From positions 1 to 23,163 of IMG/VR virus record IMGVR_UViG_3300030104_002001: a stretch of DNA of 23,163 nucleotides, one strand, 5' to 3'. This document shows positions 2,725 through 12,080 of this stretch, piece after piece. Numbering within the stretch: the stretch's first letter is position 1; every line of letters starts with the position of its first letter. The position numbers and the translations under genes were made by a program. Under the pieces are notes generated by a model. That model was not told where the DNA came from. It ran no database searches and saw only the letters and a program-made list of their open reading frames with translations. Source of the stretch: a virus.

Positions 2725-3008
2725 TTCGTTCACCTTGTGTTGGTGTATGTACACTAGAGAATGATATTTGTATTGGTTGTTTTAGAACAAGTAAACAAAT
2801 AGCTGAGTGGGCATTTTATAATGATGAAGAAAGGGAAACTATAATGAAAGAAAGTAAACCAATATTTGCAACAGCAGATATAGATTTAATAAGAGATTTA
2901 ATAGTATTTACTTTGAAAACACAAGATGATTTTGTTATGCCTGTTGAAAAGAAGAAAGAGTTTGAAGCATTGTATCATAGACTAGGTAGATTCAAAGAAA
3001 GTTCTTGA
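2721..3008 (+). CDS. DUF1289 cysteine-cluster protein with non-canonical (ATA) start
   Basis: An open frame of 95 codons begins right at the nrdJ stop. Read from the ATA at 2721 it gives (M)IRSPCVGVCTLENDICIGC followed by FRTSKQIAEW. The four cysteines C6, C10, C17 and C20 and the following RT-x4-IxxW segment are the signature of DUF1289, a small family thought to bind a metal or Fe-S centre; its function is unknown. The C-terminal half (residues 50-95) is an extra helical, charged extension. In frame there is only GTT GGT GGA TAT ATA ATT between the previous stop (TGA, 2706) and the cysteine motif, so no ATG, GTG or TTG can start it. The only in-frame ATG (2844) would remove the cysteines. 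One G in place of A2723 would create a standard ATGA overlap with nrdJ. It is either started at AUA/AUU, a mutated gene, or a sequence error. Confidence 0.7.
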   Translation: MIRSPCVGVCTLENDICIGCFRTSKQIAEWAFYNDEERETIMKESKPIFATADIDLIRDLIVFTLKTQDDFVMPVEKKKEFEALYHRLGRFKESS

Positions 3009-3033
3009 CATTTAAAATAAACTGTGTCATAAT
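3005..3033 (+). promoter_or_regulatory. Sigma70-type promoter for hsp20
   Basis: A perfect -35 box TTGACA (3005-3010) is followed after exactly 17 bp by CATAAT (3028-3033, five of six to TATAAT). TG at 3025-3026 forms an extended -10. The predicted start of transcription is near 3040. The -35 box overlaps the stop codon of the DUF1289 frame. It is the clearest promoter I see in the window and drives hsp20 and perhaps the downstream glycosyltransferase genes. Confidence 0.8.
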
Positions 3034-3039
3034 TACACT

Positions 3040-3139
3040 ATAGAATGCCATAATGGGTTCTATGAGAGAGTTCTGGTTAAAACTACCATACAGTATTCAG
3101 CGTAGTCTCTCTATTAATCGCTTAATGAAAGGATAAATA
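3040..3139 (+). promoter_or_regulatory. Structured 5' leader of hsp20, candidate RNA thermometer
   Basis: This is a non-coding leader of about 100 nt between the promoter and the hsp20 ATG. Hairpin 1 lies at the 5' end: ATAGAA (3040-3045) with TTCTAT (3058-3063) and an inner CCA/TGG. Hairpin 2 pairs AGAGAG (3065-3070) and ACTAC (3082-3086) with the continuous strand GTAGTCTCTCT (3102-3112). Hairpin 3 pairs ATTAA (3113-3117) with TTAAT (3122-3126) around a UCGC loop. It extends through an interrupted stem in which 3106-3112 faces the ribosome site AAAGGA (3128-3133), with C-A mismatches and G-U pairs. Hairpins 2 and 3 compete for CTCTCT. Imperfect masking of the Shine-Dalgarno sequence is the design of known thermometers upstream of ibpA-type genes. 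The thermometer role is inference. Confidence 0.5.
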
Positions 3140-3556
3140 ATGAGTGTATTTCATAATATAAATAGATATGCTATAGGGTTTGATCATTTGATGGATCACT
3201 TAGTATCTCTACACAGCAACAATAACTTAACAACTAATGAATATCCACCTTATGATATAATAAGAGAAGGAGAAAGTAATTATAAAATAGAACTTGCAGT
3301 TGCAGGTTTTAAAAAAGATGAGTTAAGTATACAATTAAAAGACAATACCTTAACTATAAAAGGTGAGTCTAATTCTAAAAATTCTAATGGAGATTATCTT
3401 CATAAGAATATAGCACGAAGATCTTTCTCTAAAGATTTTACTCTTGCAGAGAATATAGAGGTTGGAGATGCTGAGTTTGAGGATGGTGTATTGAGTGTTA
3501 GTTTAACACATAACATACCTGAAGAACAAAGACCAAAAGAAATATCAATACACTAA
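3140..3556 (+). CDS. hsp20: Small heat-shock protein, IbpA-like (Hsp20 family)
   Basis: The 138-residue small heat-shock protein is an ATP-independent holdase that binds unfolding proteins in the cytoplasm. The N-terminus YAIGFDHLMDHL (10-21) closely resembles that of IbpA. The alpha-crystallin domain spans about 35-125 (YPPYDI, YKIELAVAGF, the A-x4-GVL signature at 111-118). The C-terminal I-S-I (135-137) is the IxI motif used in oligomer assembly. AAAGGA at 3128-3133 sets the start. The gene is flanked by its own promoter and a hairpin, so it can be transcribed independently of the surrounding genes. Hsp20 genes are known in marine cyanophages; the role here, such as protecting assembly or host proteins during infection, is inference. 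Confidence 0.95.
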   Translation: MSVFHNINRYAIGFDHLMDHLVSLHSNNNLTTNEYPPYDIIREGESNYKIELAVAGFKKDELSIQLKDNTLTIKGESNSKNSNGDYLHKNIARRSFSKDFTLAENIEVGDAEFEDGVLSVSLTHNIPEEQRPKEISIH

Positions 3557-10921: not shown

Positions 10922-11378
10922 TTTCTTTTATCCATTTGTCATAGTCAGGTCTTTTTTCTGGATTATTAGCCCACTCTTTAGCAGCATCTATTCCAATTTT
11001 GCCCATGTATGGACAAGGTGTACCTGCCATTTCCATAGCTTGAAAGACTCTTTCATCTTGACATAGTAAAGCAACTGCACCAACTTTCATACCCATTCTA
11101 TATAAAGATCTGGATAGTTTAAGTCTTTCACAGTTCATATCACGTACTGAACTACCACCTGCTATACCTAATATCTGTGACTGTATTGCAACACTAGCTG
11201 CAAAACTACAAACATCTTGATTACTATTCATAATAGAGGGAGCACTAGCTGTAGAGGGAGTTCTATCTACAGATGTAGTGCCAGATACAGTAGATGTTGT
11301 AGATGTTACTGTATTAGTTTGTGCATAGGTTTGTAATGTAAATAAAAATATAATTATAAATAAAAAATATTTAGCCAT
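10839..11378 (-). CDS. Signal-peptide protein with four cysteines and C-terminal hydrophobic helix
   Basis: The protein is 179 residues from the ATG at 11378, whose ATGGCTAA overlaps the stop of the Fe-S carrier gene; a longer frame starts at 11417 but has no support. A classic signal peptide (MAKYFLFIIIFLFTLQTYAQ) is followed by a T/S-rich linker (21-50) and a helical domain with C57, C83, C106 and C122 around NCERLKLSRSLYRMGMKVGA and DERVFQAMEMAGTPCP. It ends in a hydrophobic helix (167-179). Even-numbered cysteines after a signal peptide suggest two periplasmic disulfides. I have an impression of similar proteins in marine phages but know no function. Its 3' end overlaps the next gene's start. 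Confidence 0.75.
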   Translation of the reverse strand: MAKYFLFIIIFLFTLQTYAQTNTVTSTTSTVSGTTSVDRTPSTASAPSIMNSNQDVCSFAASVAIQSQILGIAGGSSVRDMNCERLKLSRSLYRMGMKVGAVALLCQDERVFQAMEMAGTPCPYMGKIGIDAAKEWANNPEKRPDYDKWIKENAIKEEEYISDEGALGIFSVILMLLFI

Positions 11379-11706
11379 AAGCAAAACTTTCTCCACACCC
11401 ACATTGTGAAGTAGCATTAGGATTATTAATTTGTAAATAACTTCCTGCTACATCTTTAGTAAAATCTATAATTGTACCTAATACATACATAATAGCAGTA
11501 GGATGTATGTATAATAAACCTTTATCTAATTTAATAATTTCTTCTTGATTAATATCTTCTACTTCTGAATTAACAAATTCCCATTTATAATTAAATCCTG
11601 CACATCCACCACCTTCAATAGATAGTTGTACACCTAGGGCTTTGTGTTCATTTATTGTATTTGATAAGTATTTGTTTGCTTCTGGAGTAATAGATACTGG
11701 TGACAT
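11371..11706 (-). CDS. A-type iron-sulfur carrier (IscA/HesB-like)
   Basis: The 111-residue protein matches the A-type Fe-S carrier family in length and motifs: SIEGGGCAGFNY supplies C35 and QCGCGESF supplies C102 and C104, the three cluster ligands. Such proteins accept a cluster from a scaffold and pass it to target enzymes in the cytoplasm. The start at 11706 is chosen because it forms TAATG with the endolysin stop and has GGAG seven bases upstream; an earlier ATG at 11724 would overlap more. It lies inside the late operon, between endolysin and exported proteins, not with metabolic genes. Possible targets, phage or host, cannot be read from the sequence. Confidence 0.93.
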   Translation of the reverse strand: MSPVSITPEANKYLSNTINEHKALGVQLSIEGGGCAGFNYKWEFVNSEVEDINQEEIIKLDKGLLYIHPTAIMYVLGTIIDFTKDVAGSYLQINNPNATSQCGCGESFAYG

Positions 11707-12080
11707 TAATAACTCCATATCCAAGGTCTAGGTACTAAAGGACCTACTTCCATAGTATCTATATGAATAAACCTAGAACCATGTGCACCTTTTTGTTTAA
11801 CACCTATACCAGTAAAACCTTCTTCTAAAGCTAGTTGTACAATCTTATATGCTTTTTCACCATGACAAGCTATATCAACAGCTTTACCATATATATGAGG
11901 AGAGTTCTTAGCACCACCTATAGCTTCATTATGTTCTTTACTTCTATATCCAGAGGTAATGGTCATAGGTAGATTAAGTTTATTACGTATAGCTACAAGC
12001 TTTTCCATGAACTCTTCATCCATATTTATTTCACCTGTACCTTTACATTTTAATTCATTCTCACTAAAGAATTTCCACAT
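11706..12080 (-). CDS. Peptidase M15 endolysin
   Basis: The 124-residue M15A-type zinc peptidase matches over its whole length: FFSENELKC at the N-terminus, TITSGYRSKEHNEAIGGAKN (40-59), SPHIYGKAVDI (60-70) with zinc ligands H62 and D69, and RFIHIDT (103-109) with ligand H106, ending RPWIWSY. Members cut peptide bonds in peptidoglycan (D-Ala-D-Ala or L-Ala-D-Glu type) and serve as phage endolysins. No signal peptide is present, so it needs the holin. The start at 12080 forms TAATG with the upstream stop and has GGAG before it. Unlike in many phages, it is not next to the holin, which is encoded on the opposite strand about 4 kb away. Confidence 0.93.
   Translation of the reverse strand: MWKFFSENELKCKGTGEINMDEEFMEKLVAIRNKLNLPMTITSGYRSKEHNEAIGGAKNSPHIYGKAVDIACHGEKAYKIVQLALEEGFTGIGVKQKGAHGSRFIHIDTMEVGPLVPRPWIWSY

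Follow-up and report, generated by a model that had tools for sequence, protein, structure and literature searches.

The 100-nt leader of the hsp20 gene in this marine phage (3040-3139, plus strand; the window, i.e., the whole stretch of DNA analysed, is 23,163 nt long) is very probably a ROSE-like RNA thermometer, predicted to mask the Shine-Dalgarno (SD) sequence when cool and to release it when warm. The basis in hand is a conserved structure, covariation, and a family shared with what appears to be the ibpA thermometer of P. aeruginosa. An earlier note on this DNA had singled out the hsp20 leader as a candidate RNA thermometer, and this suggestion is now well supported, as the leader is conserved, its pairs covary and it is akin to a thermometer that has been probed. 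Judged by the sequence and structure features tested, apart from two Rfam models, there is good support for placing the leader in the ROSE-like class, and we infer that it would melt in the cell and permit heat-induced translation of hsp20.

Anatomy of the hsp20 Leader

A sigma70-type promoter (TTGACA at 3005-3010, 17 nt, CATAAT at 3028-3033; plus strand) places the predicted +1 at about 3040. The SD AAAGGA (3128-3133, plus strand) and the hsp20 ATG at 3140, both pointed out previously, were confirmed by the sequence, the open reading frame and Pfam; the frame directly 3' of the leader (3140-3556, plus strand) encodes a small heat shock protein of 138 aa with an HSP20 domain (PF00011, E 2.5e-22). 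The adjoining ribonucleotide reductase gene is nearest to that of the SAR116 phage HMO-2011, and BLAST of the hsp20 region against phage records gave no match. Elsewhere in the window, 11371-11724 appears by eye to specify a phage-encoded IscA/HesB-like iron-sulphur protein.

The ROSE core is defined as U(U/C)GCU imperfectly paired with the SD and containing a bulged G (PMC3669281; PMC11342760). The leader carries such an anti-SD motif, UCGCU at 3118-3122 (plus strand), opposite AGGA at 3130-3133 and with G3120 bulged, and this arrangement is kept in the relatives. The earlier statement that no exact ROSE motif is present is thus corrected, and its companion, that there is no fourU motif, stands, since no UUUU lies opposite the SD in the leader sequence. 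What had been taken for a different, non-ROSE design is instead ROSE-like, the two hairpins normal for that class being separated by an accessory one.

The three hairpins that the note had seen by inspection were also drawn by RNAfold (3040-3160), so that the 5'UTR falls among those with two to four hairpins and the SD in the last (hairpin I, an optional insert hairpin, hairpin II). Hairpin I (3040-3063, plus strand) pairs 3040-3046 with 3057-3063 and 3048-3050 with 3054-3056, leaving G3047 bulged; it folds at -5.9 kcal/mol (z -2.2), and its YGCC..GGG core recurs in the leaders of other phages and of Pseudomonas ibpA. Hairpin II, the ROSE-like sensor (3112-3139, plus strand), is closed in the minimum free energy fold by 3112-3115 with 3136-3139, followed by an A.A mismatch and the inner pairs A3117-U3134, U3118-A3133, C3119-G3132, C3121-G3131 and U3122-A3130, between which G3120 is bulged. 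Taken alone it is weak (-1.7 kcal/mol, z -1.66). As the whole leader folds about as well as its shuffles in RNAfold (z -0.29) and two registers of SD pairing are near-equal in energy, the fold of a single sequence decides nothing here, and the evidence for a leader structure, read from sequences, is the comparative data. The two hairpins also share a small motif (3046-3057 and 3118-3133): a Y.G pair, a bulged G, a C-G pair and then C-G or U-A. Hairpin I could in this respect be taken for the sensor core in a locked form, and the resemblance holds in other phages and in the Pseudomonas leader.

Conservation and Covariation Across Phage hsp20 Leaders

We collected 73 nonredundant hsp20 loci, 64 of them viral. 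UYGCU was found 17-26 nt 5' of the ATG in 62 of the 64 viral leaders, the two exceptions being a weak, truncated match (L075) and a locus at which our script had placed the start too far downstream (L210). The same 62 of 64 leaders share one plan, with hairpin I, which has the YGCC..GGG core and a bulged G, at the predicted +1, followed by U(U/C)GCU that pairs with an AGGA(G) SD and leaves a G bulged. Among non-chaperone genes with an SD at the same loci, the motif occurred in 2 of 187. Nine of 194 other SD-bearing leaders carried it: four belonged to hsp20 genes missed by our filter, three to two dnaK and one groES, and two to unrelated genes; all three dnaK/groES genes met at these loci have the motif. 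A pattern search with hairpin I returned 65 contigs, about half of which had a divergent hsp20 and UUGCU or UCGCU 5' of AAGGAG, and identical leader anatomy was seen before phage hsp20 genes with a protein identity of only 38-50%.

Pairing was conserved beyond the motif. The first pair outside UYGCU/AGGA can form in all of 63 leaders (C-G in 59, A-U in two, U-G in two), and its A-U form, A3117-U3134 here, is a double change from C-G found in the clade of the window and in HTVC103P. The arms of hairpin I form 5.46 bp on average, compared with 2.60 (sd 0.21) when right arms were permuted among sequences, real and permuted partners being given equal freedom. In an alignment of 40 phage leaders (A4), seven of the nine hairpin I pairs show double changes; paired cells made up 89.7% as against 73.3% in shuffled and 37-54% in slid alignments, double-change cells numbered 112 versus 36 in shuffled ones, and the covariation score was 0.475 versus 0.166. 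Plain MAFFT misaligned the loops of diverse leaders and a hand-anchored, N-padded alignment was used instead, in which the right arms of hairpin I were placed by pairing, so that it leans towards structure; sequence kinship was only partly controlled in both the permutation and the covariation tests. The core pairs of hairpin II hardly vary, and its covariation rests on the outer three pairs.

Where a -10 box or the T4-late-like TATAAATA was recognised by loose patterns in 58 nonredundant leaders, it mostly ended 3-7 nt 5' of hairpin I. With either promoter type the RNA would therefore be expected to start at hairpin I.

Kinship With Bacterial Thermometers

A covariance model, R1, was built from the 40 phage leaders only. 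In the window its match is broken by the insert into two parts (3040-3082 and 3096-3140), and the model recognises the hsp20 leaders of the cultured phages HTVC103P, HTVC104P, HTVC115P, Mosig, Melnitz-3, S-SM2, S-SKS1, P-TIM40 and C48C1. It does not match S-TIM61 or Vibrio phage IBT_VpB-34, in which the motif is not at its usual place. Outside the hsp20 set, R1 matches leaders of dnaK (L034:479-530 and L053:438-484) and groES (L073:414-471) on phage contigs, none of which had gone into its construction.

R1 also matches (E 1.2e-5) the leader of an IbpA-like gene in L271, an unverified, unannotated record named 'Pseudomonas phage Y7'. Taken as a 61-nt 5'UTR, this leader would have its SD guanines at G51, G52 and G54 and the start-codon G at G64, exactly as published for P. 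aeruginosa ibpA, and it appears to be that probed thermometer, the two being equated by length and base positions only, not by their sequences (PMC3669281). This match makes the phage leaders kin, in sequence and structure, to what appears to be an experimentally validated ROSE-like element. In P. aeruginosa ibpA, melting between 25 and 42 C was confined to hairpin II, hairpin I staying closed, and a P. putida version was locked by perfect SD pairing after removal of the bulged G and a change of U to C (PMC3669281). At the gathering score, neither the phage leaders nor the bacterial R1 loci are matched by Rfam RF00435 or RF02523, and they are not assignable to either family; the Rfam scans offered no other credible family for the leader.

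In bacterial genomes, R1 at E 0.01 gave matches in 16 of 240 alphaproteobacterial and 2 of 143 gammaproteobacterial genomes. Inspection of 16 such loci placed ten before hsp20-like genes (profile matches) and five before rpoH (by eye), and the remaining one, L247, had no readable ORF; some of the matching contigs may themselves be phage. The five rpoH cases (L250, L251, L257, L258 and L261) come from small alphaproteobacterial genomes and have hairpin I and UUGCU/AGGA about 60 nt before rpoH-like (sigma32) ORFs at about 1554-1564. A literature search found no paper on ROSE-like leaders before alphaproteobacterial rpoH. On the minus strand of L257, UUGCU..AAGGAG also precedes an ORF at 1812, apparently a gene for a metal-binding ABC transporter protein, and ROSE elements have been reported upstream of ABC transporters (PMC11342760).

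Predicted Temperature Response and Alternative Readings

Under the proposed mechanism, transcription would begin at hairpin I, a stable 5' hairpin, and the AGGA of the SD would be held in hairpin II by UCGCU, with G3120 bulged, blocking ribosome entry when cool. On warming, the weak helix of hairpin II would melt and Hsp20 would be translated, and the 51-nt insert would add an extra hairpin between hairpins I and II with the sensor untouched. Leaders were refolded from the predicted +1, as folds that included promoter DNA had given extra TACAC pairs. The predicted fraction of unpaired SD in the window rose from 0.01 at 15 C to 0.03 at 25 C, 0.11 at 37 C and 0.19 at 42 C; heating would open any weak helix in a calculation of this kind, and the rise, though it agrees with thermosensing, does not prove it. 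The SD was also predicted to be less open at 25 C in 63 hsp20 leaders than in 188 other genes (median 0.30 versus 0.50, p ~2e-6).

Instead of temperature, or alongside it, the phage Hsp20 might bind its own leader and repress translation until drawn off by misfolded protein, an autoregulation that we consider possible, if rather unlikely. There is precedent in E. coli IbpA, which binds its own thermometer-bearing 5'UTR and represses its own translation, for which R93 and an aromatic residue at Y34 are needed (PMC10474464). In the phage Hsp20 the residues equated with these, R94 and Y35, are nearly invariant (alignment A1), and Y or F stands at the position equivalent to Y35 in 64 of the 64 proteins scored. 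R94 is presumably the equivalent of IbpA R93. Since the presumed counterparts of the arginine and the aromatic residue are kept, protein feedback could act on the leader together with temperature. However, the protein of the window has D at the position equated with K98, a residue that IbpA needs, and such feedback gives no simple account of why the element should also stand before dnaK and groES in phages and rpoH in bacteria.

That the leader serves as a constitutive damper of translation or as an mRNA-stability element, with no role for temperature, is unlikely. A stem-loop at the extreme 5' end can stabilise an mRNA (PMC3669281). Against this reading stand the bulged-G UYGCU/SD core, which persists in highly diverged hsp20 genes and outside them turns up almost exclusively at heat-shock genes, and the leader's place in one family with what appears to be a probed thermometer.

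Relation to Known Thermometers

The ROSE-like reading of the phage leader finds its closest counterpart in the short Pseudomonas ibpA thermometer (PMC3669281), which likewise consists of two hairpins, the first lying close to the 5' end and having an AUGCC..GGGU core, the second with U(U/C)GCU, a bulged G and an AGGAG SD, and which also precedes a small heat shock gene. In contrast to the sigma32 promoter of Pseudomonas ibpA, the element is here phage-borne behind a sigma70-type promoter, or a T4-late-like one in other phages; the phage stems are A+U-rich, and the copy in the window has the extra 51-nt hairpin. The classical ROSE elements of Bradyrhizobium hspA and E. coli ibpA (RF00435 and RF02523) share the UYGCU/SD core, the bulged G and the small heat shock gene, but are longer, with three to four hairpins, and their Rfam models miss the phage leader.

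Thermometers described from phages in the literature searched are those of lambda cIII, SPbeta blyA and a gut Caudoviricetes sigma70 fourU (PMC11182007; PMC4166951); a 2024 paper counted SPbeta blyA as only the second after lambda cIII and added the sigma70 fourU element (PMC11182007). These have other designs and genes, and none is described as ROSE-like or on a chaperone gene. In the open-access literature searched, no phage hsp20 is described as having a ROSE element or a thermometer of any other kind, and a ROSE-like thermometer would, as far as we have searched, be new for phages. It is a more doubtful proposition that phages of many groups keep a host-type ROSE control of their own (hsp20, dnaK, groES) behind phage-type or sigma70 promoters, here together with a small mobile or switchable 51-nt hairpin module that is gained and lost at one exact point between the two hairpins.

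Genes for Hsp20 are common in marine phages, and their regulation is little discussed in the literature searched. If the thermometer reading is correct, the phage's own mRNA would be its heat sensor, acting at the level of translation, and a very common phage-borne class would join the three phage thermometers from the literature. The phage temperature response would also be tied to host heat-shock control, because the same element precedes alphaproteobacterial hsp20 and rpoH. R1 is a ready model for finding more such elements, and the prediction is testable by a simple reporter carrying leaders of cultured phages, e.g., S-SM2 or HTVC103P.

The Accessory Hairpin

Comparison with close relatives (36 hsp20 genes in this group of phages, 64-100% identity, from an IMG/VR scan) delimits an insert of 51 nt with a GAGAGA..TCTCTC stem at 3064-3114 (plus strand), its ends ambiguous by a few nt. 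It is present in six of 27 unique sequences and precisely absent in the other 21; without it the leader is 49 nt long, with hairpin I (ATAGAATGCC..GGGTTCTAT) followed by UCGCU..AAAGGA. Copies of the insert were noted in the window, L013, L017, L019, L028 and L030. Near-identical hsp20 genes differ in it (L029/L030 and L016/L019, 99% identity each), and the hsp20 tree needs five gains or losses, four of them forced by well-supported branches. The inserts of the window and L017 differ at only one of 51 bases, though their hsp20 genes are 16% divergent at the base level, and one pair at the end of the stem, A-U in some copies, reads G-C in L028 and L030. In IMG/VR the core of the insert occurs only at the hsp20 leader site, and BLAST against phage and plasmid records gave no match. 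No effect on predicted SD opening at 37 C was seen (median 0.21 with the insert, 0.23 without). The insert is a lineage-specific accessory hairpin between the two usual ROSE hairpins that leaves the sensor intact.

This bears on the switch proposed in the earlier note, in which 3106-3117 would pair with 3122-3133 to mask the SD and AGAGAG at 3065-3070 would compete for CTCTCT at 3107-3112 to open it. Both helices can be drawn: the masking helix can form in isolation (-1.6 kcal/mol, z -0.18), and AGAGAG and CTCTCT are indeed complementary. The whole-leader fold nevertheless prefers 3112-3139 and takes 3106-3111 up into another hairpin, and what had been read as the alternative helix is the hairpin that the insert itself forms. 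When the leaders of relatives were aligned, as the note had advised, 3065-3070 and 3106-3112 lay in the insert that 21 of the 27 unique relatives with the same gene lack; as both strands lie in or overlap it, the switch is not conserved, and we regard it as highly improbable. A leader peptide MGSMREFWLKLPYSIQRSLSINRLMKG encoded at 3053-3136, suggested by an open frame that stops just 5' of the hsp20 ATG and by 51 nt being a multiple of three (17 in-frame codons), is hardly credible and was rejected, because the L016-L022 clade lacks its start codon, no SD precedes it, and the differences between insert copies fit a stem (A-U to G-C, G.U to G-C).

In eight other phage hsp20 leaders (L038, L049, L051, L059, L061, L067, L196 and L197), hairpin I is separated from the ROSE hairpin by one or two additional hairpins, and this spot thus seems tolerant of insertions.
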